Assembly: GCF_019670005.1 (NCBI RefSeq) | Contig: NZ_AP019783.1 | Coordinates: forward strand, 826,501 to 890,500 | Direction of reading: 5' to 3' | From: Methylomagnum ishizawai | GTDB taxonomy: Bacteria > Pseudomonadota > Gammaproteobacteria > Methylococcales > Methylococcaceae | Length of the DNA: 64,000 nt | In this document: positions 37,388 to 59,517 of the stretch, in pieces | Numbering within the stretch: position 1 is the first letter of the stretch | Layout of the letters: every line of letters begins with the position of its first letter | Notes under the pieces: model-generated | Databases searched by the model: none | Told to the model about the DNA's origin: nothing | Seen by the model: the letters and a program-made list of their open reading frames with translations, nothing else | Translations under genes and position numbers: made by a program

Positions 37388-37756
37388 ATGACCGAAATCG
37401 ATCTTAACAATTTAGGTGCACTTAGTCTCGAAGCACTCGCCGATTACAAGGAAAAGATCGAAAAGGCTTTTCTCGAAAAGCAAATCGAGAACAAAAAGCA
37501 GGCCCTAGATCAGATCAAATCATTGGTAGACACAGGTGGAATTACGCAGCAAGAGTTGGCGGCACATCTTGGCTTTACGTTTGGAACGGCTGAAGCTATA
37601 GAAAAGCCTGCTCGCAAAAGCAAAGGCCAAAAGGTCGCCGCCAAATATTCAGACCCAGCCACGGGCAAGACCTGGACTGGACGCGGCATGAAACCGAAAT
37701 GGATGAAGGAATATATAGAGCAAGGGAAAAGTGTCGAGGAATTCGAGATCAAATAA
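37388..37756 (+). CDS. H-NS-family nucleoid protein
   Basis: 122 residues. An N-terminal oligomerising coiled coil (LEALADYKEKIEKAFLEKQIENKKQALDQIKSLV) and a C-terminal DNA-binding end with the H-NS-like core KYSDPATGKTWTGRGMKPKWMKEYIEQGKS. Such proteins silence AT-rich foreign DNA. Its location inside the AT-rich island suggests it controls island genes or binds them as a xenogeneic silencer. The start at 37388 gives the standard family length. Confidence 0.9.
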   Translation: MTEIDLNNLGALSLEALADYKEKIEKAFLEKQIENKKQALDQIKSLVDTGGITQQELAAHLGFTFGTAEAIEKPARKSKGQKVAAKYSDPATGKTWTGRGMKPKWMKEYIEQGKSVEEFEIK

Positions 37757-37786
37757 GCTCAGACAAAGCGGGCAACAGAAATAACC

Positions 37787-37821
37787 TAGGTTGGGTTGGG
37801 CATTAGTGCTTGTCCAACCTA
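37787..37821. terminator. Hairpin after the H-NS-like gene
   Basis: TAGGTTGG (37787-37794) pairs with CCAACCTA (37814-37821), an 8-bp perfect stem. It is flanked by a second pair, ATAAC...GTTAT. It probably terminates the H-NS-like gene. It was tested as an integron attC and did not match the core-site consensus. Confidence 0.45.
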
Positions 37822-37931
37822 CTCTTTGTTATGATTTAGGGTGAGTTATATATCAGATAATTGTGGCATGAAATGAGCATCTGAGGATGCAATCAAGCAA
37901 TAGATGTACCCGCAAAATTGAATAAAGGCTT

Positions 37932-38108
37932 CTATTTCTCTGTGGCCTTGCCCTCGACCTGAGGCGCATCCTCTCCAATAAGCATAGGCTTGTTATCTTT
38001 CCAAACCACAGCGTAGTGACCTAAGCGTTTCTTTTGGTCTAACGCCTTGTGAACGGCTTTCTTTAGGCTCTCCAAGATCACTAGGCTTTCATCTGAAGGA
38101 GTGTTCAT
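37932..38108 (-). CDS. Small partner protein of zeta-like toxin
   Basis: 58 residues: [49 protein letters not shown] and a short tail. Its ATG overlaps the toxin stop by 4 bp, so the two are translationally coupled. The core [15 protein letters not shown] recurs in the separate gene at 48589-48786, so this is a real family. It is probably the antitoxin or regulator of the toxin, although zeta's classical partner epsilon is unlike it. That role is inferred from coupling and size. Confidence 0.65.
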
Positions 38109-38677
38109 GGTATCGCGTTCGCTGATATGACTTGATAATTAAACTCATGAATAACGTTGCGAATATTTTGCGTTTGCTCAAAAATCAACTGGGGAGCTTC
38201 TCCATCATTCATATAACAGATACAACGATCAACTTTGAATGAATACCAGTTCAAGAGATTGTGTAAGCTTCGAGAAAAACGTCGCTCTAAATCCTTGAGT
38301 GGAATATTGTGACCACCATGAGCCACTCTTTCCGCAACTCGCAGCTTAGACATTTCCAAACTCGGCAATGCTAGATAGATTAGCTCTACAGCCCAACTCT
38401 GCGCCTTTAGCTTATCGATTAAGCTCAAATAAGTTCTGCCTGAAAGCGTTGTTTCAAAAGCAAAGCTCTCATTTCTATGAATACTGCTTTCTACTCGATC
38501 CAAGAAAATACGGCTTGCTGCCAACATAGATTGCTCTGGTGCAAAAGGCGACAGGCCAGCAGCAATTAAATCAGCATTTACGAAATTAAGGCACTTTGCA
38601 ATTTCTGGTAAATACTCAAGAGCGAAGGTAGTTTTACCCGCTCCGTTTGGTCCAGCGATAATCCAACAAGTAGCCAT
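38105..38677 (-). CDS. Zeta-toxin-family kinase
   Basis: 190 residues from [23 protein letters not shown]; a TTG nine bases further upstream is possible. The Walker A (GPNGAGKT) is followed by [13 protein letters not shown] (substrate Asp) and [13 protein letters not shown], the signature of zeta-like UDP-N-acetylglucosamine kinases and related P-loop toxins. [25 protein letters not shown] gives the arginine lid. It would phosphorylate a sugar nucleotide and stop growth unless inhibited. Confidence 0.88.
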
Positions 38678-38961
38678 GATAACCAAAGATTATAGAGCCA
38701 TCGAAGACATTGGAGGGCTTTTGCGCCGCAAATTCACGCTGACGCCGCCACTGCTCGAACTCGTTCTGCAACTCGTCATTGCCGTTGTCGCCGTCAACGA
38801 CGCGCTCAGCATCAATTCCGAATGAACGCTTGCTCTATCACGGGTAGCGGAATACCGCGCACAAGCTGAGCTGCTAAAATGCTTGCACAGTAGTATTGCC
38901 TCAATTGAGGTTGCGGCTTTCTGGTTTAAGTCCAAATCAATCTATTCAGCGGAGCAAAGCA

Positions 38962-41145: not shown

Positions 41146-41976
41146 TTAAGCGGCCTTGGGAAGGGCCGGTTGGGATTTGAAGTAGACCTCATCCGGGGTT
41201 TGGCTGTCCAGGCTCGAATGGGGCCGCCGGGTATTGTAGAAGTCCAGGTATCGCCCGATGGATTCGCGGGCCTCGCGGACCGAGCCATAGGCTTTGAGGT
41301 AGACCTCCTCGTACTTCACCGTCCGCCAGAGGCGCTCGACGAAGACGTTGTCGCGCCAGGCGCCCTTGCCGTCCATGCTGATGCGGATGTCCCGGTCGGT
41401 CAGCACCTCGATGAACTCCCCGCTGGTGAACTGGGAGCCTTGGTCGGTGTTGACGATATCCGGCGGGCCGTAGCGGCGCAGCGCCTCCTCCAGGGCCTCG
41501 ACGCAGAAACTGGCATCCATGCAGATCGACACCCGATGGGCCAGGACCTTGCGGCTGGCCCAGTCGAGGACCACGCACAGGTAGACGAAGCCCCGGGCCA
41601 TCGGGATGTAGGTTATGTCCAAGGCCCAGACCCTGTTGGGCTGGTCGATGGTCAGGCCGCGCAGCAGATAGGGGTAGACCTTGTGGGCCGGATGCTTCTG
41701 GCTGGTCTTGGGACGCCGGTAAAGCGCCTCGATGCCCATCTTCCGCATCAGCGTGGAGATATGCCGCCGACCGGCACGGAAGCCTTCGCGGCGCAGCATG
41801 TCCCGCAACAGCCGGGCTCCCATGAAGGGGTGTTCTAGGTGCAATTCGTCGATCCGCCGCATCAGCGCCAGGTCGGAGTCCGGCACCGGCTTGGGCGCGT
41901 AGTAGGCGCTGCCCCGGCTGATGCCGAGCAATTCCGCCTGCCGGGTCAGGGAAACATCATGGTCCCGGTCGATCAT
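41146..41976 (-). CDS. IS3-family OrfB (DDE integrase)
   Basis: 276 residues. HTH_21-like N-terminus (HPFMGARLLRDMLRREGFRAGRRHISTLMRKMGIEALYRRP), then the integrase core: Asp in RVWALDITYIPMA, Asp in IVNTDQGSQFTS, Glu in VFVERLWRTVKYEEVYL. The C-terminus has FYNTRRPHSSLDSQTPDEVYF. It overlaps OrfA by 4 bp and is intact. Confidence 0.93.
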   Translation of the reverse strand: MIDRDHDVSLTRQAELLGISRGSAYYAPKPVPDSDLALMRRIDELHLEHPFMGARLLRDMLRREGFRAGRRHISTLMRKMGIEALYRRPKTSQKHPAHKVYPYLLRGLTIDQPNRVWALDITYIPMARGFVYLCVVLDWASRKVLAHRVSICMDASFCVEALEEALRRYGPPDIVNTDQGSQFTSGEFIEVLTDRDIRISMDGKGAWRDNVFVERLWRTVKYEEVYLKAYGSVREARESIGRYLDFYNTRRPHSSLDSQTPDEVYFKSQPALPKAA

Positions 41977-43927: not shown

Positions 43928-44065
43928 GCTTCAGGCCATTTTAATTTTCTTGAACTTGGTCAGGTATTCCTAAACGCAAGAATGCAACTAGAAATCTGCA
44001 CTTCAAAACTAAAGCGGCTTACATTTAAGCCCATCTTTTCATGGCATTGAAGGCAATGTTACATG

Positions 44066-46906
44066 TTAGAGTATTTGCGGATAAATCCATGCAGCATTGA
44101 TCATCTGCCTGCTCTCTGGATGTAAATCAGCATTACTGATCACAGAAAGCCGTCGATCAAAAGCTTCGTATGCTTTCTTTCGTAATTCTTTCGCGGTTTC
44201 ACGATTTATCAAAATGGCCGGTGTTTCGGTGAGAGGCTGCAACAACCAGCTTATTAACTCACGAGGGTTTGTCTCTGCTTCTCTTGCTGGGTCTGAATAA
44301 ACTAATGCCGCAATGTATTCTTGTCTCATCCTCGCTCCTTGGTCATTTTGCCAACGAAGTATAGCCGTCACAATAGCCTGCCCCGGTAGCCCAGCAATTT
44401 TTGCTGTAAGACCATCAAAATCATAGCTTTTAGCAGTATAGAGCATATATCGTAATAGAGGGGAATCAAAATCCATCATCTGATATTCACTACGTCGGAC
44501 TGCTAATTCCCTGCTAAAAGTAACGCTAAGCCGCTGTTTTGCCCCCATATTCAAATGTTCTCTTAACTGCTCGGGTATCCTCAGGTCCCAAACAGAATCT
44601 TGATGACGCGTTTGTATTAACTCAATATTCAGTTCTCGCATCATGCCCTGCACGAAGGCACGTAGGTGATCCTGGCTAAGCTTAATTTCGTCCTTAGTTT
44701 CATTGGGGTCGTATCCAGCAAAATACTCAAATAACTCCCGTTGCTTCTCAACAGCGTTACGGGCTTTATCAACCGCCTCTTTAATGTCTTCAATAGTATG
44801 GTTAATCCCGCTTTTCGTTGCTCTTTCTAAAATATCTTCGACCTCTAGTAAATCAGCAATTTCACCTAAAATTTCATCCTCTAATCCATCTCGAAAGTCA
44901 CCACCAAGGATGGCCATATCTTTTACTACTTGCTGAATACGCTGATACATTAAAGTCATAATCTCAGCATCAAGGGTTTGTGGCGCATGAACATTAAAGA
45001 CCACTACAGGTTTCATTTGACCATATCGGTAAAGACGACCTACCCGCTGAACAAGTCGCATGGGATTCCAAGGGAGATCAAAGTTCACCATAATATGGCA
45101 ATGCCGTTGAAGGTTAATTCCTTCACCGCCAGCTTCTGTAGAAATCAAAAATTGGCTAGCTTCCTCAAATTTCTCGATTGCTTGCGCACGTTCTTTATGA
45201 TTCATTCCACCGTGGATCAAAACAACTGATTCAAAACCAAATCGCTCCCTCAGTGCGGTTGCGACATAATCTTGAGTACCTCGATATTCTGAAAATACTA
45301 GAATTTTCTCATCTGGACTATTATGTAGAACTGATTCAATCAGTTGATCAATGAATATGCGAATCTTCCGATCCACCATCAATAAAGCTTGCGCACGCTC
45401 AATAACTTCCTTCAATAGCTGCAACTCACCATCGAAAAACTCTTTTTCCGAATCTACAGAGAAAGCCTCTTCCCATTCGCCAAAAAATCGCTCATCTACT
45501 TCTTCCTCCGAAATTTGAACAAATACAGCTTGCTCAGCTTGCCTTTTGAGCTTATGTAGTCGTCGAATCAAGGCTTTTTCGATTGCAGCTATACTGGAAG
45601 CTGCAAGCTTCCTGTAAATAGTCATTACAAAGCCAATGGCGCGACCAGAAGCTCCTTTGGTTATTCGTCCAGCGGCATATCCTTCTGTGAGATACCTTTG
45701 AAGAATGGCATCGAAATCCTTTTCCTCTTGGCCTAGAGGAACTTCGACTGCCTTGGTAATTTTGCCTCTGAATATGAACTCACCTTTAGCATCAGTTACG
45801 TCGGATTTATGATTACGGATAACCATCTCCCTTAGAAGTTCTGGATTTAAAGAAAGCGTTTCTATATGGTTACGCCATTCTGGGCGAATGATCTCTAGTA
45901 AAGCTTGAAACTTATCTTGTTTACCTTGATGAGGAGTCGCAGATAGCAGGAGAATGGAATCTGTGCGCTTTCTCAGTTGAGCTGCAAGACGAAATCGTTC
46001 GCTAGCACTATAGGTAAGGCCATATTGGGCGCGACTCAAACGATGCGCCTCATCAAACACTATAATATCCCAGTAATCCGCCTGCATTAACTTGTCAAAA
46101 TGCGGAGCCGTCTTTAGCAGGTCTAGCGAGCCAATAACGCAGTCATAATGCTTCCAGTCTCGAACATCATTGATTGTAAAATCTAGCCCATAAATTAAAA
46201 AATCACTTAACCCAAATTTATGGTGCATTTCCTCCTTCCACTGCTTTACCAGTCCTGCTGGCGTAATCAAGAGAATACGGCGGAAGGAACGTCTTTGGCG
46301 TAATGCAGATAGCAACATTCCAACTTCAATAGTTTTACCTAATCCAACGTCATCGGCTATCAACCAATTTAGATTGCCAGACTTTAGAATATGATGAACC
46401 AGATGTATTTGATGTGGGAGCGGATCAATATCCAACTTGGATAGTGCGCCAGTATTTTCATTCCACATTTCCAAGGCATAAGCCAGGGTTTTTAGTCGAA
46501 AACTCTCAGCATTTCCATTTTTGCCGAATTGTCCGGCTTCAAAACGATGGCGAACACCTTTGATGAAGCGTAGATTCTGAAATGGAATCCATATTCTCTG
46601 GCCTGATTCAGAAAACTCTACGAGTACCTGGTCCCTGCCGCCAATCGTGCGGCTTTCCAATACCGTGCCCTCGCCTAAGCTATTACGGCTTCTAGAGCGA
46701 GGAACATCTTGAACTTCCATTCCCAATTGGAAACCGGACTTCAATTTGTCAATAGATACCCACTCAGGACCGTTGCCTGTAAACCATCGAATGTGAGCTT
46801 CAAACTTTTCGGAATCTACCGCTTTTGTTGATATTATCTCTCCCAAGCCAGTATAGCCCTCAAGTTTCACTATGCAGCTCTTTATCGGAATTAGCAGTTT
46901 GCTCAT
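44066..46906 (-). CDS. RapA/SNF2-like DEAH helicase-translocase
   Basis: 946 residues. The N-terminal 120 residues form tandem SH3-like beta modules (VKLEGYTGLGEI, VEFSESGQRIWIPFQNLRFIKG). The SNF2 core has Walker A ADDVGLGKTIEVGM, box II IIVFDEAHRLSR, box III LLSATPHQGK, then helicase C motifs LVFSEYRGTQDY-like and LVQRVGRLYRYGQ (arginine finger). The C-terminal 250 residues are helical. It would translocate on duplex DNA. Layout and island context recall the SNF2 components of defence systems such as DISARM DrmD or Zorya ZorD, but no matching partner genes are present. It starts 10 bp after the acidic TPR gene ends. Confidence 0.88.
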   Translation of the reverse strand: MSKLLIPIKSCIVKLEGYTGLGEIISTKAVDSEKFEAHIRWFTGNGPEWVSIDKLKSGFQLGMEVQDVPRSRSRNSLGEGTVLESRTIGGRDQVLVEFSESGQRIWIPFQNLRFIKGVRHRFEAGQFGKNGNAESFRLKTLAYALEMWNENTGALSKLDIDPLPHQIHLVHHILKSGNLNWLIADDVGLGKTIEVGMLLSALRQRRSFRRILLITPAGLVKQWKEEMHHKFGLSDFLIYGLDFTINDVRDWKHYDCVIGSLDLLKTAPHFDKLMQADYWDIIVFDEAHRLSRAQYGLTYSASERFRLAAQLRKRTDSILLLSATPHQGKQDKFQALLEIIRPEWRNHIETLSLNPELLREMVIRNHKSDVTDAKGEFIFRGKITKAVEVPLGQEEKDFDAILQRYLTEGYAAGRITKGASGRAIGFVMTIYRKLAASSIAAIEKALIRRLHKLKRQAEQAVFVQISEEEVDERFFGEWEEAFSVDSEKEFFDGELQLLKEVIERAQALLMVDRKIRIFIDQLIESVLHNSPDEKILVFSEYRGTQDYVATALRERFGFESVVLIHGGMNHKERAQAIEKFEEASQFLISTEAGGEGINLQRHCHIMVNFDLPWNPMRLVQRVGRLYRYGQMKPVVVFNVHAPQTLDAEIMTLMYQRIQQVVKDMAILGGDFRDGLEDEILGEIADLLEVEDILERATKSGINHTIEDIKEAVDKARNAVEKQRELFEYFAGYDPNETKDEIKLSQDHLRAFVQGMMRELNIELIQTRHQDSVWDLRIPEQLREHLNMGAKQRLSVTFSRELAVRRSEYQMMDFDSPLLRYMLYTAKSYDFDGLTAKIAGLPGQAIVTAILRWQNDQGARMRQEYIAALVYSDPAREAETNPRELISWLLQPLTETPAILINRETAKELRKKAYEAFDRRLSVISNADLHPESRQMINAAWIYPQIL

Positions 46907-46915
46907 AGTACGAGC

Positions 46916-48502
46916 CTATCTTTGCTTAGTTCTAGGCTTTTTTAGTTCCTTATTAGATGTTTGCTCTTTATCTACGTATTTAACAAGTCTTACCCTGTTT
47001 ATGGCCTTGGTTTCAATATCAATGCCAAAGCTTAATAGCTTTTCCTGTATAATTCGCTCATGAAGCGTTCCTGAGTCTGAGCCATCATGTAGCTCTCCGC
47101 AGTAATCAAGATAATCATTGAATTCAAAGTCCACCCAAGGTGCTTCTTGCAGACTATCACGGCTTCTTCCAAGTCGATAATCTAAATAAAATCTGAATGA
47201 CGGGAATTTATCCATGAACAACATGCAATCACGCCAATGTTCATAAATATCGATTAGCAACTTTTCAACCTCTTCAATCTCTGGATAGCCGCCAAAACTT
47301 CGGATCAATGCTAACGCGCTAGGCCAAGGTAAATATCGATATTTCTGTATCATCTCTCCAGGCCATCTATATTCTTCTGAAAATTCAGGATATTGATACC
47401 ATATTTCCCTGGCTTGCTCGGCTAAATCTAGTTCTATAGGCACCAGACCAGATGCCAATTCCCGTCGCATAGATACTTGAGTAGCTGACCACCAATAACG
47501 GTAGAAAACCTTAGTCAGCAATTGAATTCCTACCTCATCCCACCCATATTCCAAGCCTACCTGTATGGCAATCTGATGGGCGCGTTCAATTTTTGAAAGC
47601 TTGGAGTCACTTCTTACGTCAAGAAAATCCGAAGATGAAATATATTCATCAAAATCTGACCCAATTGGCTCAAACTGTTCCCATAGATATTCATTGCTGG
47701 CTTTTACAGTGCTAGACGCTTCTTCTAAAATGTATTCTTCAAGCCAACTTGCATCTATTACATCCTCGGCATCTTCAAGCTCTTCATTAGAATATAGCTC
47801 TTCTTTCTCGGATTCATTTTCTTCATAGCTTAAATCGTTGCTACAGCGATTATATGCATCAACTAATGACCCAGAGGGTTCTTTAAGAGCTTCTTGTGTC
47901 AATACCTTATCTTTTTGATCGCTAGACTGGGCACCTATAATTTCATAAGATATTTCGGACTCACTGCTTTGAGTAGTATCGGTCGAAATAAATGGTGATT
48001 GTTCTGTTTCATCTTCAACATCAAAATGTTCAGCTATAATCTCTGAATCATCTAAGCTCGAACCGTCCGAAGTAAGATTTTCTGCATCCTCGTTATTGTA
48101 ATATTTTCTGCCAAGACGTATTTCGCTTTGCACATTCTCAATAATTTCAACATCAACTTCTGAAATATGATCTATTTGATGCGTATGGTTTAGTTCAGCC
48201 TGAATCGGCTTTTTTTTCATATCAAGCTTGGTAGGGCTGCCTGATGATTTTTTGTCACCCCCTATTATTCCTAATACCTGCTTAAGCAGTTCTGCCGCTA
48301 CCTGAGGCTGTCCTAAAAGCATGTAAGTTCTAGCCATAGCCCTGAGAATCACTGGATGCTCTCCATGCGCAGCAGTAAATTCTTGAAGCAAGGAAAGGCC
48401 GTCATTCATGCGATTTTGATCGGCGAGGCGATTACATTTCAATAGTAATTCTTGTATTAGAGCATTCACCTCTATGTTTTTCAAAGTTGGCTGTTGATCC
48501 AT
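46916..48502 (-). CDS. Acidic TPR-linked protein of unknown family
   Basis: 528 residues in three parts. Residues 1-85 are helical and TPR-like (LADQNRMNDGLSLLQEFTAAHGEHPVILRAMARTYMLLGQPQVAAELLKQVL). Residues about 90-290 are highly acidic and low complexity (runs of Asp, Glu, Ser). Residues about 300-528 form a folded domain rich in aromatics (VGLEYGWDEVGIQLLTKVFYRYWWSATQ, YRYLPWPSALALIRSFGGYPEIEEVEKLL). It is tightly coupled to the helicase gene (10 bp), so it probably controls or recruits it. No catalytic motif is seen. Confidence 0.72.
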   Translation of the reverse strand: MDQQPTLKNIEVNALIQELLLKCNRLADQNRMNDGLSLLQEFTAAHGEHPVILRAMARTYMLLGQPQVAAELLKQVLGIIGGDKKSSGSPTKLDMKKKPIQAELNHTHQIDHISEVDVEIIENVQSEIRLGRKYYNNEDAENLTSDGSSLDDSEIIAEHFDVEDETEQSPFISTDTTQSSESEISYEIIGAQSSDQKDKVLTQEALKEPSGSLVDAYNRCSNDLSYEENESEKEELYSNEELEDAEDVIDASWLEEYILEEASSTVKASNEYLWEQFEPIGSDFDEYISSSDFLDVRSDSKLSKIERAHQIAIQVGLEYGWDEVGIQLLTKVFYRYWWSATQVSMRRELASGLVPIELDLAEQAREIWYQYPEFSEEYRWPGEMIQKYRYLPWPSALALIRSFGGYPEIEEVEKLLIDIYEHWRDCMLFMDKFPSFRFYLDYRLGRSRDSLQEAPWVDFEFNDYLDYCGELHDGSDSGTLHERIIQEKLLSFGIDIETKAINRVRLVKYVDKEQTSNKELKKPRTKQR

Positions 48503-48588
48503 TAGTATTAAAACTTGTTACCTGTTTGGCTTTTAAATTTCCTAGTCTATAGACCCGCTAAAATACCTACCCGAATATTTGCGCTGTT

Positions 48589-48786
48589 TTATGCTGCTCT
48601 ATTACTTTCCTCTTGTAGTTCATCGCTACCTACGGATACTGCCTTTCCATCCTTCCAAATCACGGCATAGTGGCCGAGCTTTCTTTTCATTTTCAATGTA
48701 TCTGCAATTGCTGCCTTCAATGCTTCCAAAACGATTTGGCTAGTTCTGAATGAGAACCCGGAAAATATTATCGGCTTTGAATCCAA
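48589..48786 (-). CDS. Paralogue of the zeta-toxin partner
   Basis: 65 residues (MDSKPIIFSGFSFRTSQIVLEALKAAIADTLKMKRKLGHYAVIWKDGKAVSVGSDELQEESNRAA). The core LEALKAAI...KRKLGHYAVIWKDGKAV matches the small gene at 37932-38108. No toxin lies beside it, so it is either an orphan antitoxin or a family with its own role. It sits between the acidic TPR gene and the UvrD helicase gene, 18 bp downstream of the latter, on the same strand. Confidence 0.65.
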   Translation of the reverse strand: MDSKPIIFSGFSFRTSQIVLEALKAAIADTLKMKRKLGHYAVIWKDGKAVSVGSDELQEESNRAA

Positions 48787-48803
48787 AAATTCAGGTTACT
48801 AGC

Positions 48804-50735
48804 CTAGCTTAAAGATGTGATATCCTTGAGTATCAGGATATCCTCTTGTGGAAAAATGCTCATATTTTGGACGCATGTAAGGGCTTTTTCTGGAGTTGAA
48901 GAAAAAAGGACTACCGCAAGATCGGTTAGTGCTCGTGTGCAGCAAACATAAAATAGTCGTCCTGTTCTATCAATTACAGTTTCCTTGCCATCATCAATGT
49001 TCTTTTGATCTATTTTAGATAGTTCCTTAATGCCTAAATACTTATCATATGAGAATTGGCTATGAGTTCCTTCTTCATCATCTAATATGACCATAACTCG
49101 TTCAAATTCAGCACCTTTGATTCCTTGTTGGGTAGAAAATGGAGACAGGTTGTCTACATAATACTTATAACCCCAAAACTCTGAAGCTTGACAGTTAAGA
49201 AAGACTTCCATTGCTGCCATTTCTTTACTGGTTTCAACCTCATGATCTGACTCGCCTTGAACCTCGCCTAATGGAAGGCTTTCGTCGAGGTAGGGAAGCA
49301 ATCGCTGATCTAATATCAATAATTCATTATCACGGAGGAAATTAAGAACATCTCGATTAGTTGCCCCTGAGTCTGCTCTTAACATTCCTTCAATCTTGAA
49401 GGTAGAGTTTCTTAAGCCAAGTAGAAGTTGCGCAAGGTTTTTACCTTGTAAAGCTTCCTTAGCAAGTAGAGGGCAGTGTAGTCGGAGTAAAGAGATAGCT
49501 GCAAATTCATCATTCCGCTTAACAGCGTTGCTTAGTGGAATTACAAAAGAAATGAATGGTCGCAAAGGCCATGCTGTACCGTCGAGGAATCCACTCTTGA
49601 AAGACTCGGGTGCTTTATCATTCATTGCTGAGTATAAATTGCAAAACCCTAATCGCACTGCTGCCATACGATGCACGATGACAAGTATCTTAACAGACTT
49701 GTTCGCATCATCCTCCGTCCAGATAGGGTCATTATTTTTAATTGATATCCATTTTCTCACAAGCCGAAGATACTCATCCCTATTATGATCGGATGGTAAT
49801 ACAAAAATATGGGCGGATCCTTTTACTGCTTGTTGTTGTCCATTGACAGTGATCATACGACCGCGAGTTTGAACAAGATCGTCGCACCTATTTCGAATAG
49901 CATTGGCAACATTTAAAACCCGAGTAGGACAACGAAAATTCTCATGTTTTGGGATGCTTAACCAGCCATCTTCGGGCTTAATGTCACCGACTCCTGTCAT
50001 ATATATACGCTGCATTGGATCGCCAAAAAATCCAAGACAAAACCGTTCTCTCATCTGCAATTCAACAGCCTTGAGTGCTTCCACAACACCGGCAGTAGTA
50101 TCTTGACTCTCATCGACGAATAGAAAGGGAAACTGTTGAGATAATAGCATCCGTAGTAATGGCCGCTCTGTCAAAAGTTGTGTCCCGACTCTTAAGACAT
50201 CATCATGCCCTAGTAACCCTTTGCTATAATTGCTACCAGTACTATAGTTAAAAGTACGAACCGTTTTAATTTGATGCTTCACAACTTCATAGCGATCAAT
50301 TTCTCTGAGATTTTTTTCTCGCGTCTTTTGCTGTACACGCAGCCCATAATTCGCAGCTTCATTTCTTAGCTCTAATAGTTTTTCATCTACCCGATCTTCA
50401 ACCCATTGCTTCAGATCATTCTGGAACGTGCGGACCAACATCCATAAAAAACTATGTATAGTTGAAACATATATTAAAGGATTATTACTGACATCTGCCC
50501 ATATCTCGCTTGCTGCGATTTCTGTATATGTGATGCATGCGATACGTTGACGATGCTTCGTAAGTTTCGCGCCATGGGCTGTTACTATGGATGCCAATGA
50601 CTTTACTAGGGAAGTTGTCTTTCCAGAACCCGCCCCAGCAACCATCACAAAACTCTTTTTCTCAGGGGCAACTAGTATATCTTTAAGAGTTAAATCCGCA
50701 TGCGTGTCCGGTTGTAAAATGCGGCGCATCTTCAT
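48804..50735 (-). CDS. gajB: UvrD-like helicase of Gabija-type pair
   Basis: 643 residues of SF1A helicase. Motif I MVAGAGSGKTTSLVKSL, Ia ACITYTEIAASEI, II FLFVDESQDTTAGVVEAL, III LGFFGDPMQRIYM, IV/V region with QQGIKGAEFERVMVIL and VI LFYVCCTRALTDLAVVLF are all recognisable. The start overlaps the OLD nuclease stop by 4 bp. An OLD-type nuclease followed by a UvrD-like helicase is the hallmark of class 2 OLD / Gabija antiphage systems, in which the helicase partner activates or extends nuclease action. It is longer than typical GajB, with an insertion in the middle. Confidence 0.85.
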   Translation of the reverse strand: MKMRRILQPDTHADLTLKDILVAPEKKSFVMVAGAGSGKTTSLVKSLASIVTAHGAKLTKHRQRIACITYTEIAASEIWADVSNNPLIYVSTIHSFLWMLVRTFQNDLKQWVEDRVDEKLLELRNEAANYGLRVQQKTREKNLREIDRYEVVKHQIKTVRTFNYSTGSNYSKGLLGHDDVLRVGTQLLTERPLLRMLLSQQFPFLFVDESQDTTAGVVEALKAVELQMRERFCLGFFGDPMQRIYMTGVGDIKPEDGWLSIPKHENFRCPTRVLNVANAIRNRCDDLVQTRGRMITVNGQQQAVKGSAHIFVLPSDHNRDEYLRLVRKWISIKNNDPIWTEDDANKSVKILVIVHRMAAVRLGFCNLYSAMNDKAPESFKSGFLDGTAWPLRPFISFVIPLSNAVKRNDEFAAISLLRLHCPLLAKEALQGKNLAQLLLGLRNSTFKIEGMLRADSGATNRDVLNFLRDNELLILDQRLLPYLDESLPLGEVQGESDHEVETSKEMAAMEVFLNCQASEFWGYKYYVDNLSPFSTQQGIKGAEFERVMVILDDEEGTHSQFSYDKYLGIKELSKIDQKNIDDGKETVIDRTGRLFYVCCTRALTDLAVVLFSSTPEKALTCVQNMSIFPQEDILILKDITSLS

Positions 50736-52999
50736 GCGGCGATCTCAGTTTCTTGAGGTATAGCCGATATAGCGCATTTCTCTGTTGCATCAGCAACCGC
50801 ATCTGCCTCCTGATCAATTTCAAAATCGACTTTAGTCTTTAACCACATCAAGCCTTCTCTAATATAAAGGGGGACTACCCATTCTCCATCTTTACGTGTT
50901 AGAACACCTAATGCAAACTTCGTTTTATCAAATTTTTTTCTTGTTACTCTCTTGTGAAGACCTTCGGCCAAGGCCTGTGGAGTTGCTGGACTCGTTTTGA
51001 GTATTAAGTTAAGTAACTTTTGATTAGTGGCTTGACACCATTCTGCATTCTCTAAACCAAAAGCCTCTTCAAGGGTTCGTCCGCAGAGGGATATAGTCTC
51101 AGCATTCCAGGTTACGGCTATCGGAAGTTGATAAGTAACTCGCACGTAAGAGCCATTTAATTGTTGCTCTTTCGCGCTCGCTGTAGCATTAAACAACTCT
51201 TCAATTTTATGAAGTTTAGGAAGCCACTGAATTAGTGTTTGATTTGCAGTTACAGCACCTTTTTGTGAGGGAAGGCATGTTTTGCCGTATTTTATTTCAG
51301 GTTCGCCTCCTTCTTGGGGAGAGGGAATTTGAATCTCTTTCTCTTCGTCTTCATCTTCGAGTTCCATCTCAGATTTTGTTATTTCACTGACGCTATCAAT
51401 ATCTGTGATTATAAGTGTGGTAATACCTAAAAATTCAATAAGTTCTTTGAAGCGATGGCCAAAAGCCCCACTGACTTCTAAAATACAAAGACAAACTGAA
51501 CGGAGCGATGGTGCTTCTTTCTCAATCATAAGAGGAAGAAGAAGACGCTCAACATTGCCTTCTACTAAAATTGCTGCATCAGCAAAGAAGAGGTCGCAAT
51601 GAGTTAGCTTCAAATAGCGTTGAAGGAAATCCCTATCTTTTGGATTATTACCTGGTTGAAAGCCTGAGAGGTTTAAGACCTGAGTAGTCTGATCTCCATC
51701 TGTAATATGCCGCCGAAAGTAGCGGATGGGTACAAAGCCACGTTCATATAAGATGTGGGCAGAATGAGTAGTTATTACGAACTGACTTAAAAATGCCCCA
51801 TCCTCTTCCTCCGGTACACGGACTAAATCAAGAACATTTCTAATAAAAACTTGCTGTAGTTGAGCGTGGAGATGAGCTTCGGGCTCTTCAATAAAAATGA
51901 GATGTAAAGGAGGACGATTTTCATCAAATTTCCATTTCGAATGAAGATCAAGTATTTCCACTACCATATATATTAAATTCTTGAAGCCCAATCCGTTGTA
52001 GTTGTCTGGCAAATGAACGGCTCCTTCACCCTCTCCAAGAATATAATGTACCTTGGTATCCTGAATCATTACTGTAACTGGATTAAGGGCAGATTTAATT
52101 TCGAGCTTTGGATTATTAAGACCCGGATAACCAAGGTTGGATATACTTTGCAAAGTTTCCTTAAATACATCCATTAGATGCCGGTTTAATTCAGCTTCAG
52201 ATTCGAAAAGAGCTTTCAATGTTGAGTGATCATCTGCGCGCTGTTCAAGATTTCTTTTGTAAAAGGCACTTAATCTTCTTGAGAGATTCTCAGCACGACC
52301 TCCTTGTCCGCTAGAATCCGCGAGGTGACGCTGTGCACTTAAGAAATCGACTTGCATCAATGATTTAAGAATAACACCTCCGCCAGGTTCGGTCGTAATC
52401 AGATCTGGTTCATAGGATGCATTTTGTTCGAATCTTTCATTAAAGCACGCACGATTGAGCACGAAATAACGGAACTCGAATTCATGCTGTAGCTCCTTTT
52501 CTAGATAATCAGTTAAATTTTTTGGCCAGGGGAGATAGCTCCCAGCACCTCCCGTAATTTTTGCAGCGAGATTTTTTCCTTCTTCGAAAGCTTTTCGGTA
52601 ACGCTGCAATAGTTCTAGTGAATTCGATGCTCCAAACTCAACGCGAATACCAACCTCTGTAGTTTGCCAAGCCGTACTCGGTAGTATTGGGAGCACTAGT
52701 CCAAGATCGGATTCAGATACTTTGAACCACAAATCGAGCGTGATAGAAGGTAGAAGAACATCAACGTCGTTTTCTTGAGTATTTTCGCCAATCGCATTGA
52801 GCAATTTCCAAACATGAGAGCTGAAATCAAAAAGAGAGAATCTATCTTTTGAACCAGAAAGGAATGCTTGGATTGCATGCGTGGCAGATGTTTTTCCACT
52901 ATTATTCGAACCAACAAAGATAGATATATCCTTAGCGAGTTCAATATAGACATCGCGCAATCTCCGATAATTCTTAAGTCTATAAGAATATAAATACAT
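50732..52999 (-). CDS. gajA: OLD-family ATPase-TOPRIM nuclease of Gabija-type pair
   Basis: 755 residues. N-terminal ABC-type ATPase: Walker A VGSNNSGKTSATHAIQ, Walker B/signature LIFIEEPEAHLHAQLQQVFI, then VITTHSAHIL. C-terminal TOPRIM: FADAAILVEGNVERLLLPLMI (metal Glu) and LIITDIDSVSE (DxD). It would nick or cut DNA under nucleotide control, protecting against phage. A strong ribosome site GGAGGGGGT precedes the ATG. It is longer than common GajA, with an extra C-terminal domain ending in acidic residues, so it may belong to a divergent branch. Confidence 0.87.
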   Translation of the reverse strand: MYLYSYRLKNYRRLRDVYIELAKDISIFVGSNNSGKTSATHAIQAFLSGSKDRFSLFDFSSHVWKLLNAIGENTQENDVDVLLPSITLDLWFKVSESDLGLVLPILPSTAWQTTEVGIRVEFGASNSLELLQRYRKAFEEGKNLAAKITGGAGSYLPWPKNLTDYLEKELQHEFEFRYFVLNRACFNERFEQNASYEPDLITTEPGGGVILKSLMQVDFLSAQRHLADSSGQGGRAENLSRRLSAFYKRNLEQRADDHSTLKALFESEAELNRHLMDVFKETLQSISNLGYPGLNNPKLEIKSALNPVTVMIQDTKVHYILGEGEGAVHLPDNYNGLGFKNLIYMVVEILDLHSKWKFDENRPPLHLIFIEEPEAHLHAQLQQVFIRNVLDLVRVPEEEDGAFLSQFVITTHSAHILYERGFVPIRYFRRHITDGDQTTQVLNLSGFQPGNNPKDRDFLQRYLKLTHCDLFFADAAILVEGNVERLLLPLMIEKEAPSLRSVCLCILEVSGAFGHRFKELIEFLGITTLIITDIDSVSEITKSEMELEDEDEEKEIQIPSPQEGGEPEIKYGKTCLPSQKGAVTANQTLIQWLPKLHKIEELFNATASAKEQQLNGSYVRVTYQLPIAVTWNAETISLCGRTLEEAFGLENAEWCQATNQKLLNLILKTSPATPQALAEGLHKRVTRKKFDKTKFALGVLTRKDGEWVVPLYIREGLMWLKTKVDFEIDQEADAVADATEKCAISAIPQETEIAA

Positions 53000-53842: not shown

Positions 53843-55156
53843 TCTTACAAGTGTAGGTTTTTGAAAAAACCGGAGGCGAGACAAAGGGTTAAGGTACATT
53901 GGTGAGTAACGACAAACACCCTGTACCGGAGGAACCGCCATGCCTCGCCCTCCAGAACTGTACCAATGGAACCGGGAGATCGCCATCCACTTTCCCGGCC
54001 TTTCGAAGCCGATGGCGATGGGCTTGGCCCTGTGGAGCCTGGGCATGGTCGTGGTCGGCGCTTGCAGCCTTTCGGCGCTGACCGACTGGTGGTCGTGTCG
54101 GCTGGGGCAGAAGGGCGACGCGGTGCGGGAGCGCCTGCGCGACGTCTACCGTGGGAAGGAGGCCAAGGCCGGGAAGGAGCGCCGCGAACTCGACGTGGAG
54201 GCGTGCCGGGCCCCCTGGCTGGGCTGGGTTTTGGAGGGCTGGGATGGAAACCAGTTGGCGGTCGCCTTGGACGCGACGAGCCTGGGGCAGCGGTTCGTGG
54301 TCCTGGCGGTCAGCGTACTTTACCGGGGCTGCGCGGTGCCGGTGGCCTGGAAGGTGCTGAGGGCGGAACGGAAGCATCCGTGGAAGCCCGAATGGCTGGC
54401 CTTGCTGAGGCATTTTAAGGACGTCGCGCCCGCGTCGTGGACCGTCCTGGTGCTGGCGGACCGGGGGCTGTACGCCAAGTGGCTGTTCGAGGGGATCCAA
54501 GCGCTGGGCTGGCACCCGATGCTGCGGGTGAACTCGGGCGGCACCTTCCGCCCCCGGGGATGGCGGCACTGGCGGCCGTTCACCCGCCTGGTGCCGAAGG
54601 TGGGCGACCGCTGGCAAGGCCGGGGGACGGCGTTCGGCGGCAAGCGGACCCGCCTGGACTGCACCCTGTTGGCCTATTGGGGGGAAGGCCACAAGGACCC
54701 CTGGCTCGTCCTGACGGACCTGCCGCCGGAAGCCGCCAACGCCTGCTGGTACGGATTGCGCGGTTGGATCGAGCAAAGCTTCAAGAAAATCAAGGGCGGC
54801 GGCTGGCAATGGCAGAACACCCGCATGGACGATCCCGAGCGGGCGGAGCGCCTCTGGTTGGCGATCGCCATCGCCACCTGGTGGCTGCTCTCGGTGGGCG
54901 GGGAGGCCGAGGCCGGAATGGCCGCCGCCACCTTCCCGGCCATTCCGGGCTCTCCCCGCCAACAGGCCCACCGCTGGCGGCTGGTGGGGATTTTCCGCCA
55001 TGGCCGTTCCCTGATCCTGGCCGCCCTCTTCGAGCGCCGCGCCTTGCCGGTGGGGAAGGCCCGCCCAGAACCCTGGCCATCGGTGCCAATCCCAACCCCA
55101 GGGGCAACCGTGGCGATCCTCACGGGGGCGGTATGAATAAACCTACACCTGTAAGA
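53843..55156. mobile_element. IS4-family insertion sequence
   Basis: 1314 bp with 19-bp inverted ends CTCTTACA(A/G)GTGTAGGTTT, one mismatch. No matching target duplication is visible in the flanks, and both flanks are broken genes, so deletion or recombination at the IS is likely. It is high in GC like the backbone. Confidence 0.85.
53940..55136 (+). CDS. IS4-family transposase
   Basis: 398 residues. DDE residues: Asp in LAVALDATSLGQRF, Asp in VLVLADRGLYAKWLF, Glu in YGLRGWIEQSFKKIKGGGW. The last segment fits the IS4 Y-(2)-R-(3)-E-(6)-K signature exactly. It is intact, with a good ribosome site (CCGGAGGAACCGCC) before the ATG. Confidence 0.9.
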   Translation: MPRPPELYQWNREIAIHFPGLSKPMAMGLALWSLGMVVVGACSLSALTDWWSCRLGQKGDAVRERLRDVYRGKEAKAGKERRELDVEACRAPWLGWVLEGWDGNQLAVALDATSLGQRFVVLAVSVLYRGCAVPVAWKVLRAERKHPWKPEWLALLRHFKDVAPASWTVLVLADRGLYAKWLFEGIQALGWHPMLRVNSGGTFRPRGWRHWRPFTRLVPKVGDRWQGRGTAFGGKRTRLDCTLLAYWGEGHKDPWLVLTDLPPEAANACWYGLRGWIEQSFKKIKGGGWQWQNTRMDDPERAERLWLAIAIATWWLLSVGGEAEAGMAAATFPAIPGSPRQQAHRWRLVGIFRHGRSLILAALFERRALPVGKARPEPWPSVPIPTPGATVAILTGAV

Positions 55157-55235
55157 GGGAAAAGCCCCTCTCCTTAATCAAGGCCATCACGTCTTGAGTG
55201 GGCTGGGTCATATTGATATTGTCAGTGTCAATCAT
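55157..55235 (-). pseudogene. Truncated divergent regulator gene
   Basis: From the ATG at 55235 the frame reads MIDTDNINMTQPTQDVMALI, then KERGFS, and hits the IS4 end at 55157. The style of MTQPTQDVMALIKERGFS suggests the start of a small HTH protein divergent from the repressor gene, like a phage cro/ner position. The start lacks a good ribosome site, so the call is weak. Confidence 0.35.
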
Positions 55236-55251
55236 GGGGAGAAATTTAGAC

Positions 55252-55285
55252 GGGAATTACGTCAATGTCAACGGAAATTACGTCA
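55252..55285. promoter_or_regulatory. Pair of direct-repeat operator candidates
   Basis: GGGAATTACGTCA (55252-55264) and GGAAATTACGTCA (55273-55285) are 21 bp apart, two helical turns, and flank the repressor start. A near-match in reverse, GACGTAAATTCC, lies at 55439-55450 inside the gene. They are likely autoregulatory sites of the XRE-type repressor. Confidence 0.5.
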
Positions 55286-55696
55286 GGCGGGCGCATAGCC
55301 GAATGGCGAAAAGCAAAAAAGCTTTCACAACAAAAGCTTGCGGATTTAATAGGCGTCAGCCGAAGCTATCTCGGGGATATCGAAGCTGGGCGTAGCGATG
55401 CCTCAGCCAAAATTCTTACGTCAATGGCGAAACATACAGACGTAAATTCCGTCTGGCTTCTAACTGGCGAAGGGATGATGGTGCAGGAGCCGCCCCAGGT
55501 GCAGCCGGAACCGCCGCCACTACCCGAGCCGACGCCCGAGGATCCCCTGGCGCGACGCAAGGCGATGTTGAAGCTGCTGGTGGACCAAATAGACGACGAG
55601 AAAGGGCTAGATGAGATTCAGGTCGAGATTGAGAAAATCGAACAGATGAGGGAACTCAAGCGAGAAGTGGCCGAGCTTCGCCGAAAGGCAGGGTGA
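55265..55696 (+). CDS. XRE-type phage repressor
   Basis: 143 residues. The N-terminal HTH_3 domain (RIAEWRKAKKLSQQKLADLIGVSRSYLGDIEAGRSDAS) is followed by a linker (LLTGEGMMVQEP, as in phage CI-like regulators), a proline-rich stretch and a C-terminal coiled coil (EIQVEIEKIEQMRELKREVAELRRKAG) for oligomerisation. There is no S24 peptidase domain, so it is not LexA-cleavable. The divergent neighbour was destroyed by the IS4 element. Confidence 0.85.
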   Translation: MSTEITSGGRIAEWRKAKKLSQQKLADLIGVSRSYLGDIEAGRSDASAKILTSMAKHTDVNSVWLLTGEGMMVQEPPQVQPEPPPLPEPTPEDPLARRKAMLKLLVDQIDDEKGLDEIQVEIEKIEQMRELKREVAELRRKAG

Positions 55697-55879
55697 GGGA
55701 TTGGGCCGGGATTGTGCCAAGCCGCACAGGTGGCGAGATAGAGAATTAGTTCACTGACAGCGGGCCGCGAAGTGTGTTATTAAGCGGCCTTACATGCCCC
55801 TTGAATGCTGCCAATGCCCCCCGGCGGCGTTATCAAATTATGTGGCGCGGCGGATCCGCTTGGCGGAAATCTATGTGTC

Positions 55880-56382
55880 GCAAGCCGCGCCGACCAGCTC
55901 GCTAAGTTGTTGATCCGGCTACTTCCGCGCTCGTCCGGGCTCTTCCGGGGATTATCAGGCTATCTGTCGCTCCACAGGGTTGACCTCCGGGCGAACCAAT
56001 TCATCCTGGAAGGCCATCACACCAAGGCGGGGAAACGGCGGATGGTGCCGCTCAACGCGGCGGCGCGGGCCGCGATACTATCCAGGGCGAGCTACCGGGC
56101 GGAACGGTGCCCGGATTCGCCTTGGGTGTTCTGCAACGCCGATGGTGAGCGGATCAAGTGCGTCCGGCGGAGCTTCAAGACGGCCTTGCGATGGGCGGGG
56201 ATCAAAAATTTCCGGCAGCATGACCAGCGGCACAGCGCCGCCGTGTTCATGTCGAGGGGCGGGCGGATTTGGAGGAAATCCGGGATGCCTTGGGGCATAG
56301 TGCGGTGAAGACGACCGAAAAATACGCCCATGTCAGCCCCGACCAAGTGCGGGAAACCTATGGACCAGATCATGATCGTGTC
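55880..56382 (+). pseudogene. Decayed XerD-like integrase
   Basis: One frame carries FILEGHHTKAGKRRMVPLNAAARAAIL, WVFCNADGERIKCVRRSFKTALRWAGI and a degraded HDQRHSAAVFMSRG box (normally H-x-L-R-H). A shifted frame carries LEEIRDALGHSAVKTTEKYAHVSPDQV, including the catalytic Tyr. The first catalytic Arg region is lost. It is a tyrosine recombinase inactivated by frameshift and deletion, probably of an older element at the same tRNA site. Confidence 0.75.
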
Positions 56383-56444
56383 ACGATCCGGGCACGATGG
56401 GAACGAAGAACGCCGCGAAAGGCGGCGCAAATCGTTGATTTGAA

Positions 56445-56490
56445 TGGTGCCCCGAATACGATTCGAACGTACGACCTTCCCCTTAGGAGT
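56445..56490 (-). other. 3' tRNA-Arg(CCT) fragment, attachment site
   Basis: On the minus strand the 46 bp read from the anticodon loop CTCCTAA through the T-arm (GTTCGAATC) to GGGGCACCA. This is the 3' part of a tRNA with anticodon CCT. The 5' half is absent: there is no D-arm and no matching acceptor strand upstream. Such fragments are left by integrases that cut in tRNA genes, and a P4-type integrase follows. It is therefore an att half-site (attL or attR). Confidence 0.75.
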
Positions 56491-56737
56491 TTGGGAGTCG
56501 GGTTCGACTAGCATAAGTCGTTCCAGGTACAAGGCCATTTGAAAACAATAGCTTGGGCCATTTTCCCACCTTCCGGGCCACGGGGCAACCGGCTTCCCCG
56601 TGGAGGTAAGCAGAGGGTGGCAAGAGGGTGAAAATGAGGGTAAGAATCCAGGCCCGGTTTTTGCCTTGGGGCGGTCTCTCCTTTGGGCCGGAATCGCTTA
56701 TATTTTGGCTAGTTAGCGATTCCAACTCCCAAAAGCC

Positions 56738-57979
56738 ATGGCCAAACAGAACCCGTCCCTCACTCCCTCGTCGATCCTCAGGGCCAAGCCCGGCGAAACC
56801 GTCCGGCGTATTTCGGACTCGGTGCCGCGCCTCCACTTGGTCATCCAGCCCAGCGGGACCAAGGCTCTCGTCTCCCGGTTGGTCGTCAACGGGAAGAAGA
56901 CCGACCAGACCTTGGCCCGGATCACTTCCACCGACCCCAAGGCCGTGGCCGACATCCTCAGGCAGGCCAGGGAAGAACACCAGAAGCGGTTGGCCCTCAC
57001 CCAGGAGGGGAAGAATCCCTACCGGGAACGGCAGCGCCCACAGGTTCAGCCCGCCGCCGAGTTGACCGTCCGGGAGGTTTTCGAGGCGTGGTTCCAGCAT
57101 TACCGGCAGGTGCCCAGCCCGAAGACCCGGCGGTTGCCCACGGAGAAGACCGTCAGCCAGAACCGGCACCGTTGGGACGCCTACCTCGCCCAGGACTTGG
57201 CCGACGTGCCGGTCAAGGACGTGACCCGGCCCATGTTGGTCAAAATCCTCCAGGGGGCGGCGACGAGGGCACGGGAGGAATCCCGGCAGGCGCTTTCCAT
57301 CACCCAGAGGATGTTCCAGTTCGCGGTGGACCACGGGCATAGGCCCGACAACCCGGCCAGCAGCATCACCACGGCGACCATCGGCACCTCGCTATGCGAG
57401 CCGAGGACCCGGACCCTCGAACTCCCGGAACTCGTGGAGTTATGGGAACGGGTCGGCAAATCCAAGATGGACCAGTCGGTGGCGTGCGCCATCCGCATGT
57501 TGATCCTCACCGCCGCCCGCCGCAACGAGGTGGCCGGGATGCGGTGGGACGAGATAGACGGCGACACTTGGAACATCCCCGCCGCCCGGATGAAGTCCAG
57601 GCAGGCCCATAGCTTTCATCTCGGCGGCTTGGCCCAAGGAATCCTCGACGAGATGCGGCCCTTGACCCTCCACACCGGGTACGTCTTCGCGGGCAGGACC
57701 GGAAGGGCCGTTCCCGGCGATTCCATTTCCCAGGCGGTGCGGCGGTTCGCCAAGCAACACGGCATCGAGGACTTCCGCACCCACGACCTCAGGCGCTCGG
57801 TCGCCACCGGGATGGCCGGGCTCGGTGTCCTCCCCCACGTCATCGAGCGGGTGTTGGCCCACGCGCCAACGAACAAGCTGGTGGCGACCTACCAGCGGCA
57901 CGACTACAAGGAGGAAATCCGGGCCGCGTTGAAGCTATGGGACAAGCAGTTCGGGGACGCCTTGTTGTTGGCGGCTTAG
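56738..57979 (+). CDS. P4-type tyrosine integrase
   Basis: 413 residues. DUF4102-like N-terminal arm-binding domain (LTPSSILRAKPGETVRRISDSVPRLHLVIQPSGTKALVSRLVVNGKKT), a SAM-like core domain (TVREVFEAWFQHYRQVPSP), then the catalytic domain: Arg in LTAARRNEVAGMRWDEI, HDLRRSVATGM box, His in VLAHAP and Tyr in ATYQRHDY. It belongs to the P4/CP4 integrase group that uses tRNA 3' ends, matching the tRNA-Arg fragment 250 bp upstream. It is intact. Confidence 0.93.
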   Translation: MAKQNPSLTPSSILRAKPGETVRRISDSVPRLHLVIQPSGTKALVSRLVVNGKKTDQTLARITSTDPKAVADILRQAREEHQKRLALTQEGKNPYRERQRPQVQPAAELTVREVFEAWFQHYRQVPSPKTRRLPTEKTVSQNRHRWDAYLAQDLADVPVKDVTRPMLVKILQGAATRAREESRQALSITQRMFQFAVDHGHRPDNPASSITTATIGTSLCEPRTRTLELPELVELWERVGKSKMDQSVACAIRMLILTAARRNEVAGMRWDEIDGDTWNIPAARMKSRQAHSFHLGGLAQGILDEMRPLTLHTGYVFAGRTGRAVPGDSISQAVRRFAKQHGIEDFRTHDLRRSVATGMAGLGVLPHVIERVLAHAPTNKLVATYQRHDYKEEIRAALKLWDKQFGDALLLAA

Positions 57980-58683
57980 GCCGTCCAGCCGGACCCGGAC
58001 GCCGGGGAAGGTCTTCCCATCCTCATTCGTAGACGCCCGTAGCTCCACGCTCCGGGGCTTCCCCCTATTACCCCCACCAGGACCACCCCGGCGAACGCCA
58101 GCGGGCGCTACAGTGCCAGCACGGCGGCTCGCGTCCTGGCTGTCAATTCTTCCCTGAACCTGCCTGTCCGACAAGGCGCGTTGGGTACCTATTGCGTGGA
58201 AGCGTCTATCTTTTTGAATTTTCAGGGAAAAATAGGGTATTGTTTTTGAAAAATTTTCCGGGTTATAGTCAATACCCCATTCTTGGCATGGCAGGTATCG
58301 AACACAACCTTTCGAGCAAAATAACTTTCCCCTCAAAACAGCCCAGATACATTTTTGCCTCCGGGAAATCATCAGATACCCGGCATGGGTTTCTATTGCC
58401 TTGAGTTTACGGATTAACTCCGCTGGGGCGATGGGAGCTTTTCAAGCAAAAGTGGGCGCTCGCCTATTGTCGGTTGAATATTGCCATAACTCGCGGCTTT
58501 CATCAACAAGCTTCAAAGGCAAGGGGGAGGTATGTGCGAAAGGAATTAAATAGATACTTATTGGAGTTCCTCTCGGAAACTCGGTGGGCCATAATCCACC
58601 CTTACCAATCCGGGAGAATGCTTTCACCGGGAAGGCAACCCCAAGTTACTTGGGTTTTTACGACTTATCGAGTTGTGGCCTAA
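57980..58683. other. Regulatory spacer after the satellite integrase
   Basis: No supported gene in 704 bp. It contains hairpin repeat A (58029-58111) and an inverted pair GGGTATTG (58235-58242) / CAATACCC (58270-58277) within AT-rich DNA, which may be an operator or promoter region for the AlpA-like operon starting at 58684. The right part is featureless. Confidence 0.5.
58029..58111. repeat. Satellite hairpin repeat, copy A
   Basis: 83 bp. It begins GTAGACGCCCGTAGCTCCAC, continues CGCTCCGGGG, and ends CAGCGGGCGCTAC, whose complement pairs with the beginning (one bulge). Copies B (59413-59497) and C (62426-62509) share the leading block; copy C also shares the closing block. The function is unknown. 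Confidence 0.6.
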
Positions 58684-59076
58684 ATGATCAATGAATACCT
58701 GAATCATCCATACCGGATACTCCGGGGCGAGGAAGCGGCCAAGATGCTTGGCAAGTGCCCGCCAAACCTTTATAGCATCCGTTCGTTTCCCAAAAAGGTA
58801 CGGCTTGCCTCCAATGTTTCGGGCTGGAAGCTGGCCGAGGTATTGGCATATCTCGCCAGGAAACAAGGAACGGTTTACACGGAACCGGAAGCCCGTCGGG
58901 AAGGAATCGTCTACATCACCGACTTGGTTATCCTATTTGGTTTAACCCTTTGGGAAACCAAGCTTTTCGTCACCCGTCCTGAATTCCCTAAAAAGGTGGC
59001 GACGCCGGAAGGCGTTGACGGGTGGAAGCTGGCGGAAGTTCTCGCCTTCATCGACCGGATACAGGAGGCATCGTGA
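58684..59076 (+). CDS. Tandem AlpA-like DNA-binding protein
   Basis: 130 residues made of two similar units. Unit 1 (about 10-63): ILRGEEAAKMLGKCPPNLYSIRSFPKKVRLASNVSGWKLAEVLAYLARK. Unit 2 (about 74-127): VYITDLVILFGLTLWETKLFVTRPEFPKKVATPEGVDGWKLAEVLAFIDR. Both have the F-P-K-K-V...G-W-K-L-A-E-V-L-A core of AlpA/MerR-like winged helices. AlpA regulates integrase and excision in P4-like elements. A covalent dimer in one chain is unusual. It overlaps the next gene by one base. Confidence 0.75.
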   Translation: MINEYLNHPYRILRGEEAAKMLGKCPPNLYSIRSFPKKVRLASNVSGWKLAEVLAYLARKQGTVYTEPEARREGIVYITDLVILFGLTLWETKLFVTRPEFPKKVATPEGVDGWKLAEVLAFIDRIQEAS

Positions 59077-59423
59077 TGGACGCCGAGAGGATATTTATGG
59101 CCCTTGATTTTGACCGGGATGCCAAAGGGCGAATCCTCGGGACGTTGACCAATACCGTGGAAGCCATCCGGTTGGCCATCGGCGGATTGTGGTTTTACAA
59201 GGATTCGGGGTTTGGCATGGTTTGCGTGGACGACCACAGGGCCGGAAGGTGGGGCCACTTCATCAGCGACACCGATTACACCAAGGTTATGCTCGCCCTC
59301 GAAGGTATCGGGTTTCGGAACCCCCGGAAAACCACAGTCAAGCAGGCCGTCCAGTTGGTGGCGGAAGAGAACCGGGGGAAGCGCAATCCGTGGGGCCGCA
59401 GACGCATCTCAGAATGCCCGTAG
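59076..59423 (+). CDS. Small VapE-linker-like satellite protein
   Basis: 115 residues. The segment GRILGTLTNTVEAIRLAIGGLWFYKDSGFGMVCVDDH through DTDYTKVMLALEGIGFRNPRKTTVKQAVQLVAEENRGKRNPW resembles the region just before the helicase in virulence-associated E proteins (weakly conserved N, then ...AV..VA..N..HP). Here it stands alone, ahead of a primase-helicase. It may be a split or ancestral replication accessory domain. The similarity is by eye. Confidence 0.5.
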   Translation: MDAERIFMALDFDRDAKGRILGTLTNTVEAIRLAIGGLWFYKDSGFGMVCVDDHRAGRWGHFISDTDYTKVMLALEGIGFRNPRKTTVKQAVQLVAEENRGKRNPWGRRRISECP

Positions 59424-59497: not shown

Positions 59498-59517
59498 CTT
59501 TCAACCAAGGAATCAAT

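Follow-up and report, generated by a model that had tools for sequence, protein, structure and literature searches.

We have found that the gene of a SNF2 ATPase and the gene just upstream of it, which codes for a partner protein of 528 residues, form an independent conserved two-gene module that is present in Methylomagnum ishizawai, on plasmids and in several bacterial phyla. The module is strongly supported by searches carried out from either of its two genes. The pair looks like an undescribed anti-phage system, recurring across bacterial phyla amid defence genes, and its partner protein contains a helical domain that none of the libraries searched recognises.

The window that we analyzed is a stretch of 64,000 nucleotides of the M. 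ishizawai genome (contig NZ_AP019783.1, positions 826,501 to 890,500), and the pair lies there in a block at 44066-52999. An earlier, sequence-only reading of this DNA had described a leftward block of five genes, and all five ORFs were found, intact and on the minus strand: gajA (50732-52999, 755 aa), gajB (48804-50735, 643 aa), a small ORF of 65 aa with a TTG start (48589-48786), the partner gene (46916-48502, 528 aa), which is the first gene of the module, and the SNF2 ATPase gene (44066-46906, 946 aa), which is the second. The overlap of 4 bp that had been read between the OLD nuclease and the UvrD-like helicase genes measured 4 bp, and the spacings given then were right within one base, being 17 instead of 18 bp between gajB and the small ORF and 9 instead of 10 bp between the partner and the SNF2 genes. 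The gap between the small ORF and the partner gene is 86 bp. The small ORF itself is outside the conserved module and has no family match, but had been described as a zeta-partner paralogue; it does resemble a second small ORF (37935-38138, E 3e-11) that adjoins a weak zeta-toxin match (38105-38686).

The first two genes of the block are an ordinary Gabija, a known system, as had also been proposed before. GajA, an OLD-type ATPase-TOPRIM nuclease, matched its PADLOC model at 2.2e-266 (residues 1-736) and has an OLD-like TOPRIM (6.4e-16); GajB, a UvrD-like helicase, comes directly after it and matched at 2.5e-235. Both matches span nearly the whole length of the proteins. The shared strand, the short gaps and the similar G+C of the five genes in this genome would fit one combined system of five genes with Gabija, which the sequence-only reading had considered. 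However, in the other loci no close counterpart of the window GajA or GajB was found at distances of up to about 8 kb from the pair, which has no conserved third gene beside it, and the PADLOC scores show Gabija to be complete on its own. The five-gene system was rejected because the other pair loci contain no such close counterparts, and we regard it as extremely improbable: a true Gabija adjoins the SNF2 pair here, linkage of Gabija to the pair was seen in 0 of the other loci examined, and the block consists of two modules side by side.

The pairing of the two remaining genes was analyzed with a SNF2 profile scan of 84,980 species genomes, which gave 80 loci. True relatives (SNF2 proteins 36-65% identical) accounted for 55 of them (L005-L059), while the other 25 (L060-L084) were called HmaA-type on the scanning of 6 of the 25, all HmaA. 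Using an iterated profile of the partner domain, the partner was found upstream of the SNF2 gene in 54 of the 55 true-relative loci, and in the single exception (L009) the contig ends about 190 bp upstream of the SNF2 gene. The same profile detected the domain in none of the 25 HmaA-type loci and in none of 80 SNF2 loci from viral contigs, where the SNF2 matches were all 25-39% identical. Neither the partner nor the SNF2 protein gave any match in the phage library. The single 528-aa protein had no matches when searched against the species-genome contigs, and the family was found with the SNF2 profile. In a tblastn search of plasmids, the C-terminal part of the partner appeared in Nitrosococcus halophilus and Deinococcus actinosclerus, each time directly upstream of a SNF2 gene, and a second Deinococcus plasmid, reached from the SNF2 side, also holds a partner. 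The partner is always the first gene and often overlaps the SNF2 gene by 4 to 10 bp, some larger overlaps in the locus table arising from taking the longest ORF.

The reciprocal search, with the partner or its domain alone against whole genomes drawn by order, class and phylum (about 1,000 in all), found the partner in 7 genomes besides this one, and a SNF2 gene adjoined it in all 7. The partner is rare, with 5 of 369 class-draw and 3 of 398 phylum-draw genomes positive, this genome counted, and its domain was found exactly once per genome in the 20 genomes examined whole. The distance matrices of partner and SNF2 proteins over 54 loci were correlated with r=0.89, a value reached by none of 2000 permutations (largest 0.23). 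In the tree, the SNF2 proteins that have a partner group together in one clade (support 0.79, or 1.0 when one viral SNF2 is added as its sister), separate from HmaA and from the RapA of the host. The co-occurrence of both genes across genomes, which had been proposed as a check, is thus seen from both sides, and what had been a guess of a two-component SNF2 system is now strongly supported. The sister SNF2 comes from a viral contig (L091 8001-10205), is 35% identical and has no detectable partner.

The SNF2 protein has intact helicase motifs and relatives in many genera. Pfam SNF2-rel_dom and Helicase_C were both matched. Its first ATPase lobe (residues 165-348, 45863-46414, minus strand) contains the Walker A motif ADDVGLGKTIE with K191 and a DEAH at 285, and the second lobe (residues 522-629, 45020-45343, minus strand) matches Helicase_C at 5e-24. 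The AlphaFold2 model (pTM 0.82) begins with two small beta-rich units at residues 12-114 (46565-46873, minus strand), with strands in 12-57 and 64-114 according to DSSP on the model. These units may be a tandem Tudor pair as in RapA, and the comparison with RapA and BrxHII follows PMC12839542. An active PD-(D/E)XK site in the C-terminal region was rejected, as the residues with a conservation of at least 80% include no D...(E/Q)xK set, which agrees with the report of an inactive REase in RapA and BrxHII (PMC12839542). In two loci from MAGs (L043 8001-10843 and L044 7815-10660) the SNF2 gene appears as two overlapping ORFs beside an intact partner, owing to a frameshift or an error of assembly.

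Among solved structures, RapA comes closest to the SNF2 protein both by sequence and by fold, and the two share the common SNF2 core and the similar beta-rich N-terminal pair. These likenesses are what one would expect if the pair were a transcription remodeller of the RapA kind, resident on mobile DNA, that acted on host or foreign RNA polymerase complexes and tuned the expression of acquired DNA rather than giving immunity. We consider this unlikely, since the window SNF2 reaches only 206.5 bits on the RapA equivalog model, against a cut-off of 576, and the host already has a true RapA of its own (1273.6 bits, C1:3994509); the gene neighborhoods of the pair, described below, are moreover rich in defence genes. 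The partner domain adjoins the other SNF2 and not RapA. RapA alone is a housekeeping protein, and to our knowledge it does not come with a partner gene of this kind.

The two-gene arrangement was also compared with known systems that contain SNF2 motors. BrxHII of type 3 BREX, HmaA of the DUF499 'BR' systems, DrmD of DISARM and ArmA of ARMADA belong to the same broad RapA-like SNF2 defence family (PMC12839542, PMC12458937), but they act in multi-gene sets with a methyltransferase and an ATPase or another helicase, whereas here the sole constant neighbor is the new partner. Specifically, the window SNF2 obtained 268 bits on the HmaA model (true HmaA proteins 511-1752), 338.7 bits on class 1 DISARM DrmD (NCBIfam cut-off 610), 71.7 of 1500 bits on ZorD of Zorya and 211.7 of 500 bits on DpdE of Dpd, and all these assignments were rejected. 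The accompanying genes are missing as well. The methyltransferase and DUF499 ATPase of Hma/BR systems are not conserved beside the pair (no family in more than 9 of 59 loci) and were not found among the scanned window genes around the block. From the type 3 BREX set (BrxC, PglX-type methyltransferase, PglZ), PglZ and BrxL each matched 1 of 106 neighbors and the set is not conserved. No conserved set of DrmA, DrmB, DrmC and methyltransferase as in class 1 DISARM stands beside the pair, nor is a third gene conserved that would correspond to the YprA-like helicase and methyltransferase of ARMADA, which we judged by the published description alone (PMC12458937).

The partner protein had no match in PADLOC or PHROGs and none over the curated cut-off in Pfam or NCBIfam, and these searches gave only a weak TPR signal. 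In its AlphaFold2 model, built from 37 sequences, confident hairpins at residues 7-84 are followed by a helix (115-142), by disorder up to about residue 300 and by a helical domain at 302-452 that is again confident. The hairpins (48251-48484, minus strand, pLDDT mostly >90) are TPR-like, with profile matches to TPR chains in the PDB, and belong to the variable part of the family. Residues 143-301 (47600-48076, minus strand, pLDDT mostly <50) form a disordered acidic arm with 46 D/E and 8 K/R. The conserved helical domain (47147-47599, minus strand, pLDDT mostly >90) is the hallmark of the family, as seen from the alignment and from the iterated HMM of 142 positions, and this domain of about 142 residues was unrecognised by any library searched. 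Foldseek against the PDB and BFVD listed matches to the TPR part and otherwise unconvincing ones, although, since the query was the full-length model, the search may have overlooked a weak fold match of the constant domain.

The N-termini that precede the domain vary among partners. Besides TPR, a zinc ribbon was recognised by Pfam in one member, CxxC pairs are also visible by eye in the partner at L017, and in Deinococcus there is a long N-terminus of low charge. The description of the window protein as an acidic TPR-linked protein therefore holds for this member and not for the family, in which TPR is one of several N-termini and the C-terminal helical domain is the constant part. In 59 of 63 partners the 80 residues preceding the domain contain at least 20% D/E. 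In two Deinococcus partners (L004 8575-12477 and L090 9967-13914) the N-terminus is about 1,150 residues long, with low charge, and a proline-rich stretch replaces the acidic arm. A tryptophan/phenylalanine motif in the arm was found in 15 of 59 members (1.7 expected from shuffles), but it was tuned by eye and was not used as evidence.

In order to characterize the neighborhoods, PADLOC matches at E <1e-15 were counted in 106 genes near the pair and in 106 genes well away from it in 16 of the same genomes. Near the pair 249 PADLOC models were matched against 21 in the control regions, which is a crude ratio because the models are redundant and several can match one protein. Among the NCBIfam matches in the neighborhood are type I and McrBC restriction (McrC), BREX, Thoeris III, Mza and MADS, whereas ABC transporters and an immunity protein head the control list. 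In Nitrosococcus halophilus, where the pair is on a plasmid (L003 4474-8280), it is near dsr1 (Dsr1), a sirtuin defence gene. From this genomic context we consider a defence role of the SNF2-partner pair likely. The surroundings could also suggest an accessory that supplies DNA translocation to whichever restriction system adjoins, as the most recurrent neighbor family is present in 9 of the 59 loci, and 7 have a type I HsdM-like family, identified by eye. This seems very unlikely to us, since the pair itself is invariant and no neighbor family exceeds 9 of 59 loci, a figure which also indicates that the module is the pair itself. At six loci (L014, L018, L021, L023, L043 and L053) two adjacent large genes, of up to about 1050 aa each, lie beside the pair, and they are possibly a restriction system travelling with it.

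Taken as one functional unit, the SNF2 protein and its partner would be a two-component candidate defence system independent of Gabija, a reading that we favor, with the mechanism proposed here, as reasonably probable. We infer that the two proteins bind each other, the constant domain of the partner docking on the SNF2 protein. The variable N-terminus, whether TPR, zinc ribbon or coiled coil, would sense or recruit, and its swapping on a constant domain suggests interchangeable sensors. The acidic arm may mimic DNA and keep the motor away from host DNA until an invader-specific complex is encountered by the N-terminus, a role that cannot be universal because the two Deinococcus partners have the proline-rich stretch instead. 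The freed motor would then track on double-stranded DNA and strip or block phage replication, transcription or packaging complexes; alternatively, DNA might be exposed to host or neighboring nucleases. Interference by remodelling or exposure of DNA, and not by cutting, is proposed because no nuclease site was recognised in either protein. The complete picture, a new two-component immunity in which a RapA-like SNF2 motor works with an adaptor of new fold, with a swapping sensor-like N-terminus, an acidic arm that checks the motor and protein stripping in place of nuclease cleavage, is put forward tentatively as a possibility.

Two-gene defence systems of a motor and a partner are also known in type III Druantia (DruH-DruE) and Hachiman (HamA-HamB), in which the partner was likewise not yet characterised at its discovery (PMC13316683, PMC12278908), although their helicases are of other families and their partners are unrelated. 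HamA is a nuclease, whereas in the window pair none was recognised. DruH-DruE, a motor system of two genes in which no canonical nuclease domain is present, can stop phage DNA circularisation and replication (PMC13316683), and it may serve as a precedent by analogy, not by homology. DruH is toxic alone and is neutralised by DruE (PMC13316683), so that by the same scheme our partner could be a toxin that the motor restrains until phage proteins release it, leading to abortive infection. The combination of a helicase with a partner that has no known nuclease would fit this toxin-antidote arrangement, as would the frequent short overlaps of the two genes. We nevertheless find it improbable, because the partner domain has no conserved catalytic-looking polar set, its invariant and near-invariant residues in the alignment being tryptophans, one alanine and one phenylalanine, and because DruE is a YprA-type helicase and not a SNF2 protein (PMC12458937).

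PADLOC 2023 does not contain the pair, and no name in NCBIfam 2026, Pfam or PHROGs corresponds to it. No paper describing it was found in our literature search, whose scope ended short of supplementary tables and subscription journals, so that it may already have been listed among predicted systems. BREX, DISARM, Hma and ARMADA all make use of SNF2 motors, with many other genes that obscure the role of the motor, and a minimal pair of a motor and one dedicated partner would allow this role to be tested directly. The partner domain is in addition a new family marker, missing from current defence libraries, and it was this marker that led to the 7 further genomes.

The whole block was probably acquired, given its low G+C, which is 39-43% in all five genes whereas the high-GC parts of the window have 61-68%, and the mobile-element genes on its borders, namely an IS3-type transposase (41146-41976), another transposase (53940-55136) and a tyrosine integrase (56738-57979). 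The first gene directly upstream of gajA is a transposase gene of high GC, followed by a short and a full tyrosine integrase and by a large DUF5906/RepB-primase-like gene, and this region (53940-61920) is a probable mobile-element boundary. Just past the stop of the SNF2 gene there is a terminator-like hairpin (44016-44031, minus strand), which is a consensus match only, and such hairpins were no more frequent in this region than after shuffling of the sequence. At 37346-38686, in the same AT-rich region, a gene for an H-NS C-terminal domain (37346-37756) is found together with the zeta-toxin-like gene (38105-38686) and its small neighbor ORF (37935-38138).
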